Assembly (NCBI GenBank): GCA_003132265.1
Contig: PKXE01000037.1
Location: forward strand, 1-11,306
Source: Candidatus Dormiibacterota bacterium
GTDB taxonomy: Bacteria; Chloroflexota; Dormibacteria; Aeolococcales; Bog-877
DNA length: 11,306 nucleotides
Reading direction: 5' to 3'
A program made the position numbers and the translations under genes. Within the stretch, counting starts at the first letter, position 1; every line of letters starts with the position of its first letter. Below the pieces are notes generated by a model, which was not told the origin of the DNA, ran no database searches, and was given only the letters and a program-made list of their open reading frames with translations. This document shows, in pieces, positions 967 to 10,182 of this stretch.

Positions 967-2361
967 GTGGCACTTCCTAGCACCCTCGGAGAGTTGCGGG
1001 GCAGCGAGTACCGGATGCGCTCGGTCCGGGACGAGCTGCGGGACAACCTGGTCGATGCCCTGCGTCACGGTCAAGGGCGTTTTCTGGGCCTGGTCGGATA
1101 CCAGGAGACGGTCATCCCCCAGATCGAGAACGCCCTGCTGGCCGGCCAGGACATCGTCTTCCTCGGAGAGCGCGGCCAGGCCAAATCGAGGCTTATCCGG
1201 GCCATGACCCAGCTCCTCGACGAGCAGATCCCCATGGTGCGCGGGAGCGAGGTCCACGATCACCCATACGCCCCGATCAGCCGCTTCGGGCGCGACCTGG
1301 TCGCCGAATTGGGGGACGCAACCCCCATCGTCTGGATCGGGCGGGAGGATCGCTTCGGCGAGAAGCTGGCGACCCCCGACACCTCGATCGCGGACCTGAT
1401 CGGCGAGGTGGACCCGATCCGGGTGGCGGAGGGCCGCTATCTGGCCGACGAGCTGACCATCCACTACGGACTCTTGCCGAGGGTGAACCGGGGGATCTTC
1501 GCGATCAACGAGCTCCCCGACCTGGCGGAGCGGATCCAGGTCGGGCTGCTCAACATCATGGAAGAGCGGGACGTCCAGATCCGCGGCTTCCAGGTCCGCC
1601 TGCCCCTGGACGTGCTGGTGGTCGCCACCGCCAACCCCGAGGACTACACCAACCGGGGCCGGATCATCACCCCGCTGAAGGACCGATTCGGGGCCCAGAT
1701 CCGCACCCACTACCCCCGCTCGTTGGAGGCCGAGGCGGACATCATCGAGCAGGAGCGGGACCAGTTCGAAGGGCTGGGGATCCCTTTGCACGTGCCCCAA
1801 TACATGCTGGAGTTGGTCGCCGAGATCTCCCAGCTGGCCCGGCGCACGACCCAGATCAACCAGCGATCGGGGGTCTCGGTCAGGCTGTCGATCGCCAATT
1901 TCGAGAGCCTCTGCGCCAACGCGGTGCGCCGGACCATCGCCCTCCAAGAGGCGGAGGCGGTGCCCCGGCTCAGCGACCTCGGCGCGCTCTCGGCTTCGAC
2001 CCTGGGCAAGCTGGAGCTGGAGACCTGGGAGGAGGGCGAGGACCAGGCGGTGCTGCAGAAGCTGCTGCGCAGCGCCAGCGGCAACGTCTTTCGGCGACAC
2101 TTCTCAGTCCAGGAGTTCGCGCCGGTGCTGGCCCGCTTCGAGCAGGGCCTCACCATCGAGGTCGGGGAGATGGTCCCGGTCGAGCGCTACCTGCAGATCG
2201 CCGACGGCATCCCTGAGATGAATCGGATCCTCAGCGACCTGGATGAGCCCCAACAGCCGGGATCGGTGGCCGCCGCCCTGGAGCTGGTCCTGGAGGGGCT
2301 GCACCTCTCCAAGCGGCTGAATAAGACGGTGGTCGACGGCACCGCCGTCTACGGCAGCTAG
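967..2361 (+). CDS. MoxR/magnesium-chelatase-like AAA+ ATPase
   Basis: A 464-residue AAA+ ATPase of the MoxR / magnesium chelatase subunit I type, expected to hydrolyse ATP as a ring and remodel a target with its VWA partner. Visible parts are the Walker A motif GERGQAKS at 67-74, a Walker B-type strand GIFAINE at 176-182 whose acidic residue is E182, sensor 1 ATANPED at 220-226 with N223, and an arginine-finger region LKDRFG around 237-242. The rest is helical lid. The GTG at 967 is preferred because the residues it adds (TLGELR near 6-11) resemble the usual start of this subfamily, and a purine-rich stretch GGGGCTAGGGA lies just upstream; an ATG at 1015 is the alternative. No membrane segment is seen. 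The stop is 10 bases before the VWA gene, indicating one transcript. It is not a true chlorophyll or cobalamin chelatase subunit, since no such pathway genes are present. Confidence 0.9.
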   Translation: MALPSTLGELRGSEYRMRSVRDELRDNLVDALRHGQGRFLGLVGYQETVIPQIENALLAGQDIVFLGERGQAKSRLIRAMTQLLDEQIPMVRGSEVHDHPYAPISRFGRDLVAELGDATPIVWIGREDRFGEKLATPDTSIADLIGEVDPIRVAEGRYLADELTIHYGLLPRVNRGIFAINELPDLAERIQVGLLNIMEERDVQIRGFQVRLPLDVLVVATANPEDYTNRGRIITPLKDRFGAQIRTHYPRSLEAEADIIEQERDQFEGLGIPLHVPQYMLELVAEISQLARRTTQINQRSGVSVRLSIANFESLCANAVRRTIALQEAEAVPRLSDLGALSASTLGKLELETWEEGEDQAVLQKLLRSASGNVFRRHFSVQEFAPVLARFEQGLTIEVGEMVPVERYLQIADGIPEMNRILSDLDEPQQPGSVAAALELVLEGLHLSKRLNKTVVDGTAVYGS

Positions 2362-2371
2362 GCAAGGGGCG

Positions 2372-4360
2372 ATGGCCTCGGTCCGCCAGCGCTACAGCCG
2401 CTGGGACGGCAGTCAGGAGGGCGAGCTCCCCGACTCCGGCGAGCTCTTCTCGCAGCTCGCGGAGGACGTCTTCCACGGCTGGGACTTCGAGTCGGCGCTG
2501 CGCCGGCTCCTGAGCCAGGGGTTCAAGGACAGCGACGGCCGCCAGCTCCGGGGTCTGGAGGACCTCCTGGAGCAGCTCCGAGAGCAGCGCCAGGAGAAGC
2601 TGGAGCGCTACAACCTGGATGGCCTCTTCAAGAACATCGAGGAGCGGTTGGACCGGATCCTCCAGAAAGAGCGCCAGACCCTCCAGGAGCGTTCCCGGCA
2701 GGCGGCCGGCACCGAGCGGCAGCAGCTCGTGGAAAAGCTCGCCAACAGCCGCCTCGAGCAGCTCGATGCCCTGCCCCCGGAGGCCGGCTCGGCCATCCGC
2801 CAGCTCCAGGACTACGAGTTCCTGGACCAGGCGGCGGCCCAGGACTTTCAGGAGCTGCTGGCGGAGCTTCGCCGAAATCTGGTCGAGTCCCACTTTCAGG
2901 AGCTGGGCCGGGCCCTGCAGAACATGGGCGAGCAGGACTTGGGGCAGCTGCGCGAGATGGTGTCGGACCTGAATCAGATGCTGGCGCGGCAGCTGCGCGG
3001 CGAGCCCCCCAAGTACGAGGAGTTCATGGAGAAGTGGGGCAGCTACTTCCCAGACCACCCCGAGAACCTGGAGTCATTCCTGGATCAGCTCCGTCAGCAG
3101 ATGGCCGAGCTGGATTCACTGCTCCAGTCCGCCTCGCCAGAGACGCGCCAGCAACTCCAGGAGATCATGCGGGCCGCCCTCGGCGACGAGGCCCTCCAGG
3201 GCCAGCTCGCTCAGCTCTCCCAGCTGCTCGCGCAGCTGTCCCCCCAATCCCAGCCGGGATCTCGGTTCGGGTTCTTCGGCGGCGAGGAGCTCGACCTCCC
3301 CGGGGCCGTGGACGTGATGGGGGAGCTCCAGCAGCTGGACTCCCTGGAGCGCGGTATCCGCCAGGCCTACTCCGGCATGGAACTGCCACCGGAGCTGCTG
3401 GATCAGCTCGCCGACACGCTCGGTCCCGACTCGGCGGCCAGCCTGGCGCAGATCCAAGAGCTGGTCAAAGTGCTGGAGGCGAAGGGCCAGCTCCGGAGGG
3501 GTGGGGACGGCCTGGAGCTGACCCCCCAGGGGGTGCGCAAGATCGGCCAGAAAGCGCTGGGCGACATCTTCCAGCACCTCGCCCAGGACGGCTTCGGCAG
3601 CCATCCCCAGGGCAGTTCCGGGACCGGGATCGAGGCCGGCGACAACAGCAAGCCCTATGAGTTCGGTGACCCCTTTAATCTCGATGTGGAGCGCACCCTG
3701 ATGAACGCCGTTCGCCACAGCGACGGCAGCCGTCCGCTGCGCCTCGCGGTCGACGACTTCGAGGTGTTGGAGTCGGAGCGCAGCGTGTCAACCAGCACCG
3801 TGCTGATGCTCGACATGAGCCGCAGCATGCCGCTGCGGGGATACTTCTACGCCGCCAAGAAAATGGCGCTGGCGCTGGACTCTCTGATCCGCACCCAGTA
3901 CCCGCGGGACACGCTCTACGTCGTCGGATTCTCCGACTACGCCAGAGAAATTGGACCCGGGATGCTGGCCCAGCTCTCCTACAACGAGTACGTCTACGGC
4001 ACCAACATGCAGCACGGCCTGATGCTGGCGCGTCGCCTGCTCAACCGCCACCGGGCCGGGAATCGGCAGATAATCATCGTCAGTGACGGCGAACCCACCG
4101 CGCACATGGAGGGCACGCACGCCGTCTTCATGTACCCCCCGTTGCCGGAGACGTTCCAAAAGACCCTCCAGGAGGTGCGGCACTGCACCAGGGAGGGGAT
4201 CGTGATCAACACCTTCATGCTGGAGAGCAATCAGTACTTGGTGCAGTTCGTCAAGCAGCTGACCCGCCAGAACCGGGGCCGGGCCTTCTTCGTCAGTCCT
4301 GATCGGTTGGGGGACTACGTGCTGGTCGACTACGTGGCCTCCCGCGCCAGGTCCGGCTGA
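2372..4360 (+). CDS. VWA-domain protein, partner of the MoxR-like ATPase
   Basis: A 662-residue protein with a C-terminal von Willebrand factor A domain at about 470-655. The metal-ion-dependent adhesion site is intact: DMSRS at 481-485 (the DxSxS motif), T544 in YGTNMQHG, and D572 in IIIVSDGE. Residues 1 to about 440 are almost entirely predicted helix, rich in Leu, Gln and Glu, with Q/L-rich repeats near 275-290 (QLAQLSQLLAQLS), which suggests coiled coil or helical bundle. No signal peptide or transmembrane segment is seen, so it is likely cytoplasmic, like the ChlD/BchD and other VWA partners of MoxR ATPases. It begins 10 bases after the ATPase stop, with AAGGGGCG before the ATG, and ends 3 bases before the next start. 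Known biology of the family points to a chelatase-like complex in which the VWA protein contacts the target through its MIDAS metal. The target here is unknown. Confidence 0.88.
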   Translation: MASVRQRYSRWDGSQEGELPDSGELFSQLAEDVFHGWDFESALRRLLSQGFKDSDGRQLRGLEDLLEQLREQRQEKLERYNLDGLFKNIEERLDRILQKERQTLQERSRQAAGTERQQLVEKLANSRLEQLDALPPEAGSAIRQLQDYEFLDQAAAQDFQELLAELRRNLVESHFQELGRALQNMGEQDLGQLREMVSDLNQMLARQLRGEPPKYEEFMEKWGSYFPDHPENLESFLDQLRQQMAELDSLLQSASPETRQQLQEIMRAALGDEALQGQLAQLSQLLAQLSPQSQPGSRFGFFGGEELDLPGAVDVMGELQQLDSLERGIRQAYSGMELPPELLDQLADTLGPDSAASLAQIQELVKVLEAKGQLRRGGDGLELTPQGVRKIGQKALGDIFQHLAQDGFGSHPQGSSGTGIEAGDNSKPYEFGDPFNLDVERTLMNAVRHSDGSRPLRLAVDDFEVLESERSVSTSTVLMLDMSRSMPLRGYFYAAKKMALALDSLIRTQYPRDTLYVVGFSDYAREIGPGMLAQLSYNEYVYGTNMQHGLMLARRLLNRHRAGNRQIIIVSDGEPTAHMEGTHAVFMYPPLPETFQKTLQEVRHCTREGIVINTFMLESNQYLVQFVKQLTRQNRGRAFFVSPDRLGDYVLVDYVASRARSG

Positions 4361-4363
4361 GCG

Positions 4364-5242
4364 GTGCCGGCCATCCGGTTGGACGCCTATCGTCGGCAGT
4401 TCCAGGACCGCCTCCTCAACCAGCTCCGCTCCCGCTATGGCGACTGGGACTTCGCCGCCCGCGAGAACGACTTCGGCGTGCTGGCCCGCAAGGAGCGGGC
4501 TCAGGTGGCGCTGTCCCTGGAGTCGCTCTACGCCGATTCGGCCAAACCCGGGGTCTCCGTCCCCGATGAGATCTCCCGTTTCGTGGCTGCCACCGGGCCC
4601 CGCCTGAGCTCGGCGGAGCAGCACCCCGGGCAGTCGGGTCCGGCGCCGGACCCGGGCGCTCTGGTCTGGTGCGTCAGGGCTGAGCGCAGCATCCGCGGCT
4701 ACAGCCGCTTCGCGGAACTGGCGACCCGAGAGCTCCCGGGCGGGCTGCTGGCCTTCGTCGCGGAGGCCCTGCCCGGAGACGCCATGCGCGGGGTCTCCCG
4801 CGACGACGCGCAGGCGGGCGGCCTCAGCGAGGCCAACCTCTGCCAGCACGCGGATCACAACACCGCGCTGCGGCTGACGCACTGGAGCTCGGAGCTGGCG
4901 GCTGCCCGCGCGCAGCGGACCTGGCTCTTCACCGACGACATCCTCTTCTCCAGCAGCCTGCTGCTGGTACCGGCGTTCCTGGACCAACTGGGCCAGCTGG
5001 GACAGGGCCGGGCCGCGGTGGCCGTCCCCGACCGGGCGATGGTCGTCGCGGGGGTTGGCGAGGCGGCGGCCCCCGAGACCATGGTGCCGCTCGTGCGCCG
5101 ACTCTACCGGCTGGCCAGCTTTCCGCTCAGCCCGGTCTTGCTGGCCACCGACGGCCGGTCCCTGGAGCTGCATCCCGCCGAGCGGCAGGCTGCTAGCCGG
5201 AGGACCGGCTGGCGCCGTCTCTTTGGGACCGCGGAAGGTTGA
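4364..5242 (+). CDS. DUF1444-like protein of unknown function
   Basis: A 292-residue protein that I do not recognise with certainty. Its pattern fits the DUF1444 (YtpQ-like) family. The N-terminal part has a predicted helix followed by a segment ending in VALSLESLYAD, resembling the family's inLenly motif. A middle stretch, VSRDDAQAGGLSEANLCQHA and the residues after it, resembles the family's 'edl...gls.eeL...A..N' pattern. Then comes LFTDDILFSSSLLLVPAF followed by a strand and AVPDRAMVVAG, resembling the family's 'aSlLL...l......vavPsRD.llv'. It starts with GTG 3 bases after the VWA stop and its own stop overlaps the next start by 4 bases, so it is translationally coupled on both sides. No signal peptide or membrane helix is visible. 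Biochemical function is not known for the family; in this setting it may be a third component of the ATPase/VWA complex. The family call rests on remembered patterns. Confidence 0.55.
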   Translation: MPAIRLDAYRRQFQDRLLNQLRSRYGDWDFAARENDFGVLARKERAQVALSLESLYADSAKPGVSVPDEISRFVAATGPRLSSAEQHPGQSGPAPDPGALVWCVRAERSIRGYSRFAELATRELPGGLLAFVAEALPGDAMRGVSRDDAQAGGLSEANLCQHADHNTALRLTHWSSELAAARAQRTWLFTDDILFSSSLLLVPAFLDQLGQLGQGRAAVAVPDRAMVVAGVGEAAAPETMVPLVRRLYRLASFPLSPVLLATDGRSLELHPAERQAASRRTGWRRLFGTAEG

Positions 5243-6120
5243 GCCAAGCCCATTTCGAGGCCCCCAAAGGGGTGCGGGAGGCGATCGCTCGGATGCGGGC
5301 CGAGGCAACCGCCCGCTACGGAGAGGCGCTGATCGAGGTGAGCGTCACCCCGGATGGACTGCGAGGAACGGTGGCGCTGCCAGCGCAGGTGATGGAGTTG
5401 GAGCGCCTCCTGGCTGGGCTCTGGCCGGAGGCTGAGTGCCGGCTGCTGGTGCTGGCCACCCGGAGAGCCCGGGCGGCTCTCCACCCAGAATCCGGGCCCC
5501 TCGACATCTGGCGGAGACCGCCCGATGCTGGTGGCGAGCAGCGGGAACTGACCACCCAGCTGCTGCCGGGCGACCCGCCGGCCGAGCTGCTGGCAGTTCG
5601 GGAGGGGCAGTACCTGGTCAAGGCCCCCGGCGAGGCGGTGGGCTGGGTGTCACGGACGGCCCGATTCCGTTTGGGGCCAGCTCTGCCACCCACCCCGCCG
5701 GGAGTCGCGGTGGTGCCCGCTGACGGCTGGGATCCGAAGGTCGTCCGGGAGACCGCCCTCAACCTGCTTGGCCGGCCCTACGTCTTCGGGGGGACCGGGG
5801 GGCAGGGGGTGGACTGCTCGGGACTCAGCTGGCGCGCTTTCCTCGCCGCCGGGGTGCTGCTACCCCGCAACAGCCGCGCCCAGCGCAAGGTGGGCGACCG
5901 GGTGCGGCTGGCGGGGCTGGGGGAGGCGGACCTCATCTGCGCCGTCCACCGGGGCCCCAAGCGAACCAGCCACGTCGCGATCTATCTGGGAGAGGACGAG
6001 GTGGTCCACGCCTGCAGCGAGTGTCATGAGGTGCGCCGAGAGCGACTCGCGGAGTTCCGGAATCGCTATCAGGTGCTCACCATCCGCCGGGTGCCCGGAG
6101 CGCGTCCCCCCTCCCGCTAA
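5239..6120 (+). CDS. NlpC/P60-family cysteine peptidase, apparently cytoplasmic
   Basis: A 293-residue protein whose C-terminal half is an NlpC/P60 domain, the fold of gamma-D-glutamyl-diamino acid endopeptidases that cut murein stem peptides. The catalytic Cys is C193 in VDCSG, the His is H245 in SHVAIYLG, and H257 in VVHACS fits the third polar position. Upstream, about 110-150 (LLAVREGQYLVKAPGEAVGWV) looks like a bacterial SH3-type segment; the first 100 residues are unassigned. No signal peptide, lipobox or membrane helix is seen, unlike secreted cell-wall hydrolases, which suggests intracellular peptide processing comparable to the YkfC-type recycling enzymes. The TTG start overlaps the previous stop in TTGA, with GGAAGG just before it; a GTG at 5272 or ATG at 5293 are alternatives. 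It stands 10 bases before a Mur-type ligase. A cell-wall peptide substrate is inferred, not shown. Confidence 0.85.
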   Translation: MSQAHFEAPKGVREAIARMRAEATARYGEALIEVSVTPDGLRGTVALPAQVMELERLLAGLWPEAECRLLVLATRRARAALHPESGPLDIWRRPPDAGGEQRELTTQLLPGDPPAELLAVREGQYLVKAPGEAVGWVSRTARFRLGPALPPTPPGVAVVPADGWDPKVVRETALNLLGRPYVFGGTGGQGVDCSGLSWRAFLAAGVLLPRNSRAQRKVGDRVRLAGLGEADLICAVHRGPKRTSHVAIYLGEDEVVHACSECHEVRRERLAEFRNRYQVLTIRRVPGARPPSR

Positions 6121-6130
6121 CCTAGCCCAG

Positions 6131-7684
6131 ATGGAGGCACCTGGAACGCCCGAACCGGCCGCCGCGGCAACTCTGCGGGAGAAACCCGCGCTCCGGGTGC
6201 CGCCCAATCTGGCCCAGCTGCGTCAGAGCCGGATCGACCTGGTCGGGGTAGCCAGTGTCGAAGGTGGCGAGATGGCTCGCTACCTCCTGGCTGCCGGGTT
6301 CACCAACCTCGTCGGCCACGACCAGCAACCGGATTTGGAGAGCCTCGAGCGAGCTCACCATCTGGCCCACGCCGGACTGAGCCGGGAGGAGCGTCGGCAG
6401 CGGCTAGAACAGTTGCTCCACGGCCTGCACTCGCTGCAGTTGGCCGACGGCTACCTGGAGGGAGTGGAGCACTCGGAGGTGGTCATCCCCACCCAGGCCT
6501 GGTTCCTCTCCCCAGCCAACGCCCCCTTGCAGAAGCTCAAGGAGCGGGGACACCCCTTCTACTCCCTGATCCAGGCCTATCTCGACCTGGCGAGGGGCGA
6601 GGTGGTGGGGATCACCGGCAGCCACGGCAAGTCGACGACCAGCGCTCTGGTGGCGGCGGTCCTCAGCCGGAGCGGGCGCTATCCCACGGTCTGGCTGGCC
6701 GGCAACGACCGCCACGACCGCCAGGCATTGGAGGAGGTGGCCCGCGATGAGGGCGGGGGTTGCCTGGTGCTGGAGATCAGCAACCGGCAGCTGCTGCAGA
6801 TGGAGCGCGCCCCCCGGGTGGGCTGCATCACCAACATCACCCCCAACCACCTGGACGAGCATCAGGGCTTGGCCGGCTACCTGCGCACCAAGCGGCGCAT
6901 CTTCGACCTGCCCGGCTGCGAGGTGGCGGTCCGGAACGGGGACGACCCGCTCAGCCTCGAACACCCGGAGTTGGCGGAGGGAATCCACCAGCTCCGCTTC
7001 GCCAGGACGGAGGCTCGGCTGGAGGGCCTCGATGGCGCCTTTGAGGAGCAGGGAATGCTCCGCCTGCGCTGGCAGGGCGCCTCCCACGCGGTGATGCCGG
7101 CTGGACGGGTGCCGCTGCTCGGGGATCACAACCTCAGCAACGTCAGGGCCGCTCTCAGCGTCTTGGCCGGGCTGACCGATCCTGAACCGGGCCTGCTGGA
7201 CCGGGCGGTGGCGGCGATCGAGAGCTTCCGGCCGCTTCGGCACCGCACCGAGCTGATCCGCCAGCACCGGGGAGTCGACTACGTCGACGACCTCTCCAGC
7301 ACCACCCCTCAATCCACGGTCGCCGCCATCCGGGGCCTGGGCCGGCCCTGCGTCCTCATCGCCGGCGGGGAGGACAAGGGCATCGACTTCACCGAGCTGG
7401 TGGGACAGGTGGGCGGCCCGGTCCGGTCAGTCGTGCTCCTACCGGGAGCTGGCTCGGAGCGGTTGGCGCGGGAGCTGGTCGCCGCCGGACAGCAGGCGCT
7501 GGTGCATCAGGTGGAGAAGCTGCAGCTGGCGGTGGAGCTGGCCACGGAGCTGGCCCAGCCGGGGGAGGCGGTGCTGCTGTCCCCCGCCTGCCCGGGGTTC
7601 TTCACCGCTCACTACGGTGAGGGGGGCTTCCGGCAGGCGGTGCGGGGCGCTACTTCTCCTCGTCCTCGAAGGGCGCCAGGGTGA
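6131..7684 (+). CDS. MurD-like Mur ligase (divergent)
   Basis: A 517-residue Mur-family ATP-dependent amide ligase most like MurD (UDP-N-acetylmuramoyl-L-alanine:D-glutamate ligase). The N-terminal part (about 30-155) is a Rossmann-like domain. The central ATPase has GSHGKST at 163-169, EISNRQ at 215-220, and TPNHLDEH at 237-244. The C-terminal domain shows GDHNLSN, HRTELI, YVDDLSSTT, IAGGEDKG and LSPACPGFF. It is longer than typical MurD (about 450 residues), mainly in the N-terminal domain. Several substrate-contacting positions differ from the usual MurD: the P-loop is GSHGKS rather than GTNGKT, the NDSKATN motif has become DDLSSTT, and SPACAS has become SPACPG. The gene lies far from any division and cell-wall cluster. 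It could be the organism's MurD or a paralogue with another acceptor. The ATG at 6131 lacks a clear Shine-Dalgarno sequence and probably depends on coupling to the gene 10 bases upstream; a GTG at 6197 is an alternative. Confidence 0.8.
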   Translation: MEAPGTPEPAAAATLREKPALRVPPNLAQLRQSRIDLVGVASVEGGEMARYLLAAGFTNLVGHDQQPDLESLERAHHLAHAGLSREERRQRLEQLLHGLHSLQLADGYLEGVEHSEVVIPTQAWFLSPANAPLQKLKERGHPFYSLIQAYLDLARGEVVGITGSHGKSTTSALVAAVLSRSGRYPTVWLAGNDRHDRQALEEVARDEGGGCLVLEISNRQLLQMERAPRVGCITNITPNHLDEHQGLAGYLRTKRRIFDLPGCEVAVRNGDDPLSLEHPELAEGIHQLRFARTEARLEGLDGAFEEQGMLRLRWQGASHAVMPAGRVPLLGDHNLSNVRAALSVLAGLTDPEPGLLDRAVAAIESFRPLRHRTELIRQHRGVDYVDDLSSTTPQSTVAAIRGLGRPCVLIAGGEDKGIDFTELVGQVGGPVRSVVLLPGAGSERLARELVAAGQQALVHQVEKLQLAVELATELAQPGEAVLLSPACPGFFTAHYGEGGFRQAVRGATSPRPRRAPG

Positions 7685-7823
7685 GCGGCGCCAGCACCAC
7701 CAGCTCGAAGGTGGCTCCGCAGTTCGGGCAGTCGACCAGGTCCCCGATCTCGTCCACGTCAGTGAGGTCGAGCTCGGAGCCGCAGTCGGGGCACTGCTTG
7801 GCGGGAGCACCGGTGACGCTCAC
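7650..7823 (-). CDS. LysW-like amino-group carrier protein (zinc ribbon)
   Basis: A 57-residue acidic protein reading SVTGAPAKQCPDCGSELDL and onward from a GTG at 7823, with TAGGAG seven bases upstream as a strong ribosome binding site. Two knuckles, CPDCG at 11-15 and CPNCG at 32-36, flank the segment DVDEIGDLVD, followed by ATFELVVLAPLTLAPFEDEEK. Spacing, size, acidity and the 'ELxVVxLxPLxL' stretch match LysW, the carrier whose C-terminal glutamate side chain holds alpha-aminoadipate or glutamate during lysine/arginine synthesis. The usual EDWGE tail is replaced by EDEEK, so the terminal glutamate is absent and a lysine takes its place. No lysX, lysY, lysZ, lysJ or lysK is nearby. It is the only minus-strand gene between two plus-strand operons: its 3' end overlaps the Mur ligase by 35 bases and its start is 14 bases from that of the PLP enzyme. 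It could instead be a structural zinc-ribbon protein, but the LysW likeness is strong. Confidence 0.85.
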   Translation of the reverse strand: MSVTGAPAKQCPDCGSELDLTDVDEIGDLVDCPNCGATFELVVLAPLTLAPFEDEEK

Positions 7824-7837: not shown

Positions 7838-8926
7838 TTGCCTGGCTCTGAGTTGGCCGGAGCGGAGCCCCTCGGGCAGTGGATCCACGCCGAACTCTTC
7901 AGCGTCAGTCTACCGGCTGGATCTCGGCTGTCCCTCGGCGAGGGCGGCACACCCCTGGAGCCCGCGGAAGAGCTCGGAGAAGCACTCGGGATCCCATCGC
8001 TCCAGTTGAAACGCGAGGACCTCTCCCCCACCGGCTCCCACAAGGCCCGCTGCCTCGGGTTGCTCTGCTCACTGCTGGTGGCCGCCGGGGACCGCCAGGC
8101 AGTGATCTCATCGTCGGGTAACGCGGCGGTCGCCGCGGCGGCGTACGCCTCGCTGGGCGGCATCCGACTGCTAAGCCTGGTCTCCCCCCGCACCCCAAGG
8201 GTCAAGCTGGACCGGCTCCGGGGCTATCCCCAGTTGACAGTCCTCAGTGAGCGCCCGGTGGCCCTTCTCCATCATGCGGTGCGCAGCTGGGACCTGGCCG
8301 ACCTTCGCGGCTCGGTCAATCCGCTGGCGCCCAACGCCTATCGGGGGATTGCCGCCGAGCTGGTCGGGACCGGGGCACTGGCCGCGGTCTTCCTCTTCGC
8401 CAGCAGCGGTGCGAGCGCCCTCGGGATCTCCCAGGGCTTCAACCAGCTCCTCCCGCCCTCGGAGCGGCCCCAGCTTCACGTGGTCGAGGGCAGCCCGGGT
8501 GGCGAGCTGACCCGCCCCTGGTACCAGAGCACCGGCCCCGCCTCTAGGCCCGAGTCCCACCTCGGGGAGCTCGGCTCCCGGCGCTCGCGTCTCTCCCCGG
8601 CGGTGCGGAGGGAGGTGCGGGCCAGTGGAGGGCGAGGGTGGCGGGTCGGTCCAGCGGAGCTGGCCGGGATCAGGGAGCTGGCCGATCGCCACGGGCTGCG
8701 GACCTCGTGGGAGGGACTGGCCACCCTGGCGGCGATGCGCGAGGCGGCGGCCGGCGATCAGGTGAGCCGAGCGGGCAGCTGGATCGCGGTCCTGACCGGG
8801 GACGCGGCCCAGCTGGATCTGGAGCCTTCCCGAGCAGACGACCGCCCACTCCCCGTCGCCGAGTCGGAGCTAGAGCTGGACCTGCTCCTGGAGGCAGCCG
8901 GATTCACGCGGCCGGATGCGAGGTGA
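7838..8926 (+). CDS. threonine-synthase-like PLP-dependent enzyme
   Basis: A 362-residue fold-type II pyridoxal-phosphate enzyme related to threonine synthase and the cysteine synthase group, acting in beta/gamma replacement or elimination on amino acids. GEGGTPL at 34-40 is the typical threonine-synthase opening. K69 in LSPTGSHKAR is the expected Schiff-base lysine (usual motif GSFKDR), and SSSGNAA at 91-97 is the substrate-carboxylate/PLP loop with N95. ASSGAS at about 188-193 stands where the glycine-rich phosphate-binding loop is expected, with fewer glycines than usual. The TTG start is chosen for its GAGGT ribosome site seven bases upstream; a TTG at 7853 is the alternative. Its stop overlaps the ATP-grasp start by 4 bases (GTGA), indicating co-translation. 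The changed SHKAR and phosphate loop argue against an ordinary housekeeping threonine synthase; no hom or thrB is present. The reaction cannot be named from sequence. Confidence 0.8.
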   Translation: MPGSELAGAEPLGQWIHAELFSVSLPAGSRLSLGEGGTPLEPAEELGEALGIPSLQLKREDLSPTGSHKARCLGLLCSLLVAAGDRQAVISSSGNAAVAAAAYASLGGIRLLSLVSPRTPRVKLDRLRGYPQLTVLSERPVALLHHAVRSWDLADLRGSVNPLAPNAYRGIAAELVGTGALAAVFLFASSGASALGISQGFNQLLPPSERPQLHVVEGSPGGELTRPWYQSTGPASRPESHLGELGSRRSRLSPAVRREVRASGGRGWRVGPAELAGIRELADRHGLRTSWEGLATLAAMREAAAGDQVSRAGSWIAVLTGDAAQLDLEPSRADDRPLPVAESELELDLLLEAAGFTRPDAR

Positions 8927-10182
8927 CGGTCAACACCGAGCGGGTGGTGTTCTTGGGGCCCGACCCGCTGCCTGCCGTAGGCAGCCAACTGCCCGTGCTC
9001 TGCGCCGACGGCTGCGGCCTCAGCAGGGAGGGTGGCCCCGGTTGGGAGGAGTTCGAGATGCGAGGGCCCAACTCCAGCGCCGCCCTCCTTCGGCTGCCGG
9101 CGGTCCAGCAGCGCCTCCGCTCCCAGGTGGACGCCCTGGCGGTTTGGAAGAGCTCCGCCGAAGTGGAGCGGATCGCCCTCGAACTGGGGGTCCTGGTCGC
9201 CAACTCTCCCGCTCTGATCGCCCGCCGGATCGAGAACAAGAGCCACTTCAGCCGCGAGGCCCAGGCGGCGGGGCTCCCGGTCCCGCCCACCAGAGTTGGG
9301 GTCGCCGGCCCGGAACTGCTGCGGGCCGCGCTGGAGCTCTCTGGCCCCTTTGTCTTCCAGCTCGCCCACGGCTTCTCCGGGGAGCAGACCTACCCCGCCA
9401 CCTCGGAAGCGGAGCTCGCGGAGTTGGTCCGCCGGTTCGAGGGCCGGGCCTGCCGGATCGCGCAGCAGGTGGTGGGCACGGCGATCACCGTGACCGGGGT
9501 CGTATCCGCGGAGCGGCTCCTGGTCGGGCCGGCCTGCATTCAACTGACCGGTCTGCCCAGCCTCACCCCCCATCCCCTGGGCTCCTGCGGCAACGACTAT
9601 GGGCGCCCGGTCCCCGAGCCAGACGCAGTCCGCGAGGTGACACTGCGGACCGCCGACTGGCTGCGCCGCCAGGGCCACCTGGGCATCTTCGGCTTGGACC
9701 TGGTGGTGGGCGCGAAGGGAGCGATCTGGTGCATCGAGGTCAACCCCCGGCTGGTGGCCTCGGTGCCGCTCTTCAGCCTCACTGCCCGGGACCAAGGGAG
9801 CCCGGGAATCCTGAGCCAGCATCTCGCCAGCTTCGGGATCGGTCCGAGCGCCGAGGTGGAGCTGGAGTGCCACTGGTCTCAGCTCATCCTCTACCAGCTG
9901 GGTGAGCGGCTCCGGCAGCCGGAGGTCAGGACGGCCCGGGGTACCCTCACTGCCCCGGGCCGCTTCCGCGCTGCCGGCGAGCTGGGGTTGCCGGGACCTC
10001 AGCCAGGGGAGGTGGGACTCCTGGTCCAGGGACATTCCCGCCCGGGCAGGGAACTGGCCCGGCTCTTCTTCGAGGGACCCTGCTGCGCTCCCGACGGTAC
10101 CCTCCTGCCCCAGCTGGAAGCCTGCATGGGGGAACTCCGCTCCCAGTTGGAGGCTCCCAGCAGGGCGGCGGCAGTTTCGTGA
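8923..10182 (+). CDS. ATP-grasp carboxylate-amine ligase
   Basis: A 419-residue ATP-grasp enzyme, expected to activate a carboxylate as an acyl phosphate and join it to an amine or thiol. The N-terminal ~100 residues form a preATP-grasp-like domain, followed by ENKSHF at 104-109 with K106. The ATP-binding strand is GPFVFQLAHGFSGEQT around 141-157, in which Q146 stands at the place of the usual lysine. The metal-binding end is clear: FGLDLVVG with D259, and IEVNPR at 271-276 with E272 and N274. The last 120 residues resemble the C-terminal region of biotin-carboxylase-like ligases. It is much longer than LysX (about 280 residues) and is not an evident LysX orthologue. The GTG at 8923 overlaps the PLP gene's stop by 4 bases. 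Together with the PLP enzyme and the LysW-like carrier next door, an amino-acid ligase acting on a product of the PLP enzyme is plausible but unproven. Confidence 0.82.
   Translation: MTVNTERVVFLGPDPLPAVGSQLPVLCADGCGLSREGGPGWEEFEMRGPNSSAALLRLPAVQQRLRSQVDALAVWKSSAEVERIALELGVLVANSPALIARRIENKSHFSREAQAAGLPVPPTRVGVAGPELLRAALELSGPFVFQLAHGFSGEQTYPATSEAELAELVRRFEGRACRIAQQVVGTAITVTGVVSAERLLVGPACIQLTGLPSLTPHPLGSCGNDYGRPVPEPDAVREVTLRTADWLRRQGHLGIFGLDLVVGAKGAIWCIEVNPRLVASVPLFSLTARDQGSPGILSQHLASFGIGPSAEVELECHWSQLILYQLGERLRQPEVRTARGTLTAPGRFRAAGELGLPGPQPGEVGLLVQGHSRPGRELARLFFEGPCCAPDGTLLPQLEACMGELRSQLEAPSRAAAVS

Follow-up and report, generated by a model that had tools for sequence, protein, structure and literature searches.

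A LysW-family carrier with an EEK-type tail in a five-gene module putatively linked to the D-glutamate of peptidoglycan

A stretch of 11,306 nucleotides from a Candidatus Dormiibacterota bacterium (contig PKXE01000037.1, hereafter the window) codes for a small zinc-ribbon protein of the LysW family, the subject of this study. The sequences place this carrier in a module with four further genes, coding for an NlpC/P60 peptidase, a MurD-like ligase, a fold-type II pyridoxal phosphate (PLP) enzyme (PALP) and an ATP-grasp ligase. The module recurs in other phyla, its carriers share a distinct class of tail, and its MurD-like and NlpC/P60 proteins display characteristic active-site patterns; in the family of the source genome (18 genomes, hereafter the family) neither MurI nor a conventional MurD is detectable. 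We propose that the five proteins may form a single cytoplasmic pathway that would install D-glutamate (D-Glu) at position 2 of the stem peptide, replacing MurI and conventional MurD. A role of the charged carrier in D-Glu or peptidoglycan metabolism appears somewhat probable, and we name the pathway a peptidoglycan D-Glu route with fair confidence; the exact chemistry is put forward only tentatively. D-Glu is nearly universal in peptidoglycan, and the enzymes that supply it are drug targets.

The carrier is, as a preliminary description of the window had claimed, a LysW-type zinc ribbon of two knuckles (CPDC and CPNC, both CxxC). Its open reading frame (ORF), on the minus strand, a detail that the preliminary description left unstated, starts at a GTG codon with an AGGAG-like ribosome site upstream, and the protein passed the Pfam model PF21344 (Zn_ribbon_LysW; 44.1 bits, cut-off 27). 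The score against NCBIfam lysW, TIGR01206, was 45.1, under the cut-off of 53.2, as was that of the canonical LysW of the same genome (43.2). By profile, the closest solved structures are Thermus LysW (3wwl) and the LysW-like chain of 5k2m, the alignment to which ends short of the EDWGE-type terminus. Orthologues occur in all 18 family genomes, and comparison with that of genome G001 yielded a dN of 0.126 and a dS of 0.648 (dN/dS ~0.19), values which, as estimated from this sequence pair, fit purifying selection. The ORF is a real gene, a paralogue of LysW. One extra weak LysW-like match was recorded in G001.

The PLP, ATP-grasp and Mur-type neighbours previously noticed are all located on the strand opposite the carrier, with the MurD-like gene tail to tail with it and PALP divergent. 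The gene order in the family is NlpC/P60, MurD, carrier (inverted), PALP, ATP-grasp and DnaJ, and the five module genes are of ordinary size. All 18 genomes have carrier, MurD and PALP side by side; ATP-grasp lies beside PALP in 15 (the other three at contig ends), and NlpC beside MurD in 14, three of the remainder being at contig ends and one, the 18-kb locus L043, being without it. The ATP-grasp gene was found in 17 of the 18 family genomes, while the other 92 genomes of the class set (110 in total) gave three weak matches. A separate and inverted carrier gene, as found in the family, would also suit a zinc ribbon that bears no substrate and acts on the MurD/NlpC pair as a scaffold or regulator; yet the C-terminal tail of the carrier varies no more than that of LysW, which is known to be charged, and we regard such a role as very improbable.

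With a MurD, a hydrolase of the gamma-D-Glu type and a PLP enzyme surrounding the carrier, a supply of D-Glu suggested itself, in which case MurI should be missing. No family genome had a match to the MurI model TIGR00067, in contrast to 77 of the 92 other class genomes (73 over the cut-off; Fisher p 5e-12, kinship ignored); counted by genus, the figures were 0/5 and 25/32 (p 0.002). The same model detected MurI in 10 of 14 control genomes, missing that of Thermotoga. The D-amino-acid aminotransferase model TIGR01121 did not reach its cut-off in any of the 110 class genomes and gave sub-threshold matches in 108, an uninformative outcome. As a separate observation, a class IV aminotransferase match is located about 3 kb from a Mur-ligase-like match in genome G000 (contig C14, 24747-29271), and several family genomes show a comparable distance.

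The MurD-like protein of the window contains the middle and C-terminal Mur ligase domains (PF08245 and PF02875, both over cut-off) and scores 203.7 against TIGR01087, under the cut-off of 211.95. A conventional MurD over that cut-off was found in 0/18 family genomes versus 82/92 other class genomes. In every family genome the top-scoring MurD match is the module protein (178-205 bits); the exception is G001, whose locus is truncated and whose top match lies on another contig piece. Outside the family, the module MurD of L121 passes the cut-off (268.9), so the low score is a trait of the family and not of the whole module. Residues were compared in 18 module MurDs (13 from the family and five others) and in the 19 readable sequences of 30 conventional MurDs fetched. 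Ser415 of the D-Glu site, kept in 19/19 conventional enzymes, is replaced by Gly, Phe or His in 18/18 module MurDs, and residues 417-418 are deleted in all of them. T321 and K348 of the same site are retained in 18/18; position 422 is Phe or Tyr in seven of the 18, and the loss is claimed for Ser415 and 417-418, not for 422. According to the available part of PMC3527612, which gives the roles of the D-Glu site residues, Ser415 binds the second carboxylate.

In the NlpC/P60 proteins compared (10 family, five others), both the catalytic C238, H291 and H303 and the gamma-D-Glu S1 residues Y226, D237, S239 and S/T257 are conserved in 15/15. Trp228 is present in 11/15, with Phe in the window protein, and the Asp256 position is Asn or His in all 15. 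The roles of the catalytic and S1 residues follow an extract of PMC2954226. In YkfC, Asp256 binds the free N-terminal amine of L-Ala.

PALP retains the PLP lysine K69 and the SSGN loop (S91, S93, G94, N95) in 14/14 sequences. The fold, the PLP lysine and the loop are common to fold-type II racemases, threonine synthases and dehydratases; the closest enzymes are threonine synthases. Like the ATP-grasp gene, PALP is distinctive of the family, the best match outside it scoring 87 bits. The affinity to threonine synthases, together with the altered MurD site, is compatible with a module that synthesises or attaches, at or near position 2, a residue different from plain D-Glu; this could be a glutamate bearing an amide or another substituent, or part of a cross-bridge, with PALP performing a threonine-synthase-like substitution. 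The gamma-D-Glu recognition residues kept in every NlpC/P60 protein compared tell against it, and we consider this possibility rather unlikely. A slightly better candidate, albeit also unlikely, is the production of free D-Glu, with the PLP enzyme racemising L-Glu and the carrier, ATP-grasp and NlpC/P60 proteins merely buffering or channelling D-Glu to MurD. The same absence of MurI speaks for it, and the fold-type II aspartate racemase 5ybw does match the PALP profile (E 3.1e-14), but the replacement of Ser415 throughout the module MurDs would be odd for a user of free D-Glu.

The ATP-grasp ligase carries the motifs PLGSCGND and EVNPRLVAS. GSWGR, the partner-ligase motif that reads EDWGE, was found in 0/98 ATP-grasp homologues. 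Foldseek and VIA-align comparisons with the structural model of the protein suggest the general ATP-grasp fold alone (PurK, GARS, biotin carboxylase) and assign no function.

Further support for a functional unit comes from its recurrence. The ATP-grasp profile scan of named genomes retrieved 69 loci, 15 from the source family and 54 others. Five of the latter hold the full five-gene set: L118 (Armatimonadetes), L120 (an unclassified bacterium), L121 (Patescibacteria), L122 (Deltaproteobacteria) and L123 (an uncultured proteobacterium). At L119, located where a contig ends, a fragment of PALP accompanies the ATP-grasp gene, and 47 loci, from Streptomyces and others, contain more distant ATP-grasp relatives and no set. 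All five genes are also found, on one strand, in G229, a genome of the same phylum and a different class. The arrangement varies: L122 and L123 share the one-strand order carrier, NlpC, MurD, PALP and ATP-grasp, with overlapping genes from NlpC through ATP-grasp; in the Armatimonadetes assembly, NlpC/P60 and MurD-like domains are fused in one 814-aa ORF (L118, 5941-8385). In L121 the module is part of a peptidoglycan cluster, between MraY and the FtsW, MurG-like, MurC and MurB genes (MraY, FtsW, MurC and MurB over curated cut-offs, the MurG match under its own). The option that the Mur ligase is an unrelated housekeeping neighbour was dropped given this recurrence outside the family and the missing conventional MurD. 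MurI was over cut-off in none of the seven genomes of L117-L123, whose completeness is unstated, and two of them gave weak matches of 24.7 and 21 bits.

Some data weigh against the proposal. Fifteen class genomes outside the family also lack MurI, yet have no module-type ATP-grasp gene (G021, G027, G028, G030, G031, G032, G035, G038-G040, G045, G046, G049, G090 and G101; by subtraction, 13 in the sister family and two in another). G038 has a weak ATP-grasp match, and several of the 15 have a conventional MurD over cut-off. L117 is a counter-example in which a module-type ATP-grasp (306 bits) is the sole module gene on an 11.8-kb contig.

The tail of the carrier, correctly described from the outset as EDEEK instead of EDWGE, ends in EEK in 18/18 family genomes, and the EDWGE terminus is absent from all 18 of these carriers. 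A carrier profile built from family and non-family sequences matched 1654 proteins, and among the best 120 of these the tails were EEEK (58), DEEK (43), EAEK (17) and DWGE (2), i.e. [DE][EA]EK in 118 of the 120. These best 120 include many close relatives from the source family, but Myxococcota, Anaerolineae, Caldilineae and Armatimonadetes are also among their named sources. The names attached to relatives of the window carrier are mostly Candidatus Dormibacteria or Dormiibacterota. In the phylum, LysW-type matches were obtained in 157 of 400 sampled genomes, and 16 of the 17 non-family loci read end in EDWGE, the remaining one being that of G229, which ends in EEK. Two genomes of the phylum (L243 and L248) each have a tandem pair of LysW genes, all ending in EDWGE. 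The co-occurrence of this tail with PLP, ATP-grasp and Mur neighbours, raised as a question in the preliminary description, was found both within the family and across phyla.

Because the coding overlap of carrier and MurD-like genes is an identical 29 bp in the 14 family loci measured, conservation of the tail within the family is weak evidence. A tail forced by the overlapping MurD gene was nevertheless rejected, since L118, L120, L122 and L123, without overlap, still end in EEK or AEK; relatives outside the family likewise keep EEK-type tails. EEK-tailed carriers that bear public names are often labelled lysine biosynthesis protein LysW, which is probably a misnaming.

Regarding the attachment residue, Glu55 or Glu56 had been suggested. 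Glu55 is unlikely because its position is Ala in 17/120 relatives, whereas Glu56 and Lys57 are equally invariant across the 118 EEK-type proteins, so that the sequence cannot choose between them. One could imagine a carrier that serves an unrelated metabolite and, like ordinary LysW, is loaded through the amine of the substrate, either on Glu56 or on the terminal alpha-carboxylate. In LysW and ArgW, the C-terminal Glu bears the substrate by its amine (PMC10433800, as far as its accessible portion goes), and Glu56 is invariant in the EEK class; nonetheless, the ATP-grasp homologues lack GSWGR, MurD and NlpC/P60 share the operon, and we find this option improbable, marginally more so than that of a modified residue at position 2. 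Lys57 is preferred for the D-Glu route because a pathway deduced from MurD, NlpC/P60 and the missing MurI would need a carrier that does not block the amine of its substrate. Both a PLP epimerase and MurD require a free alpha-amine. Glutamate held by its carboxylate would keep that amine free, and Lys57, the sole side-chain amine in the tail, would therefore be the putative site.

In the mechanism that we propose, the ATP-grasp enzyme would bond glutamate, by its gamma-carboxylate, to the epsilon-amine of Lys57, leaving the alpha-amine free; a D-Asp ligase from the ATP-grasp family, whose acceptor is likewise a lysine epsilon-amine, offers a precedent. The fold-type II PLP enzyme would then epimerise carrier-bound L-Glu to D-Glu, and the MurD-like ligase would link the amine of the bound D-Glu to UDP-MurNAc-L-Ala, although epimerisation might also follow ligation. 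NlpC/P60, as a gamma-D-Glu hydrolase, would be the release enzyme. Such a mechanism would unite the terminal Lys, the altered MurD site, the retained NlpC pocket and the missing MurI. That a LysW-family protein works with reversed chemistry, bearing a glutamate carboxylate on its terminal lysine amine, in a multi-phylum system of tethered epimerisation and ligation that replaces MurI and known MurD, is a conjecture to which we give appreciable weight, short of holding it probable.

A primary lysine role for the EEK carrier was rejected. None of the ten window proteins scanned belongs to the LysX, LysZ, LysY, LysJ or LysK families, in line with the preliminary description. Contig C103 of the same genome codes for a canonical LysW with an EDWGE end, followed by LysX (296 bits) and an ArgC-type reductase (269), both over cut-off, LysZ (LysW-aminoadipate kinase, 321, over cut-off) and LysK (LysW-lysine hydrolase, 297, under the model cut-off of 363); the reductase may act as LysY, and LysJ was not among the genes sought in this cluster. 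Furthermore, canonical LysW plus LysX over cut-off occur in only 4/18 family genomes, compared to 18/18 for the EEK carrier, which is therefore independent of the lysine pathway. The view of a LysW-family protein that is not a lysine carrier is supported accordingly; the second, EDWGE-tailed LysW with its lys genes removes the primary lysine role alone.

Several known systems offer partial parallels. The carrier resembles LysW and ArgW in its zinc ribbon, size, acidic C-terminal arm and nearby ATP-grasp gene, and differs in its EEK tail, in an ATP-grasp partner without GSWGR, in having no adjoining lysine genes and in a terminal residue that offers an amine rather than a side-chain carboxylate. 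As in the MurD2/MurL system of Xanthomonas and others, MurI would be replaced, and MurD is altered. In the consulted part of PMC8788868, however, that system consists of two proteins without a carrier, its epimerase uses ATP and MurD2 has Arg at K348, the position that is Lys in 18/18 module MurDs; it was found by the same reasoning, from genomes without MurI and the aminotransferase. Chlamydia DapF, acting as a glutamate racemase, likewise provides D-Glu without MurI, but as a single bifunctional enzyme (PMC5885031, in part). The module NlpC/P60 domain shares the gamma-D-Glu S1 residues with YkfC and dipeptidyl-peptidase VI; unlike YkfC, it is found among biosynthetic, not recycling, genes, and Asp256 is changed to Asn or His. 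Should the proposal be true, a carrier-borne route would add an alternative to MurI, D-amino-acid aminotransferase, MurD2/MurL and DapF and would help explain wall building in some MurI-less genomes of several phyla. It would also correct a frequent LysW naming in databases, and the LysW family would gain a function in the cell wall along with a second chemistry of its tail. No published description of the module was found by title or abstract in the open-licence literature, the domain of the search, which did not cover subscription papers.

Table 1. Module features of the window, with positions and strands.
Feature	Positions	Strand
NlpC/P60 cysteine peptidase, no N-terminal signal	5239..6120	+
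MurD-like ligase, divergent type	6131..7684	+
3'-to-3' overlap of carrier gene and MurD-like gene, 35 bp including stops	7650..7684	
LysW-like carrier (zinc ribbon of 57 aa ending in FEDEEK), with Lys57 as candidate attachment site	7650..7823	-
PALP fold-type II PLP enzyme, threonine-synthase-like, proposed Glu epimerase	7838..8926	+
ATP-grasp ligase, proposed carrier loader	8923..10182	+

Upstream of NlpC, the window codes for a MoxR-like ATPase, a VWA protein and a 292-aa protein without Pfam match (967-5242), an order kept in family loci where the contig reaches, except for L043. The latter (G009, contig C10) has carrier, MurD, PALP and ATP-grasp genes, and no NlpC, MoxR or VWA in the ~7 kb upstream of MurD. 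Divergent from the MoxR gene, a member of the 2-phosphosulfolactate phosphatase family (PF04029) is encoded at 20-892 on the minus strand and is conserved there in several relatives.
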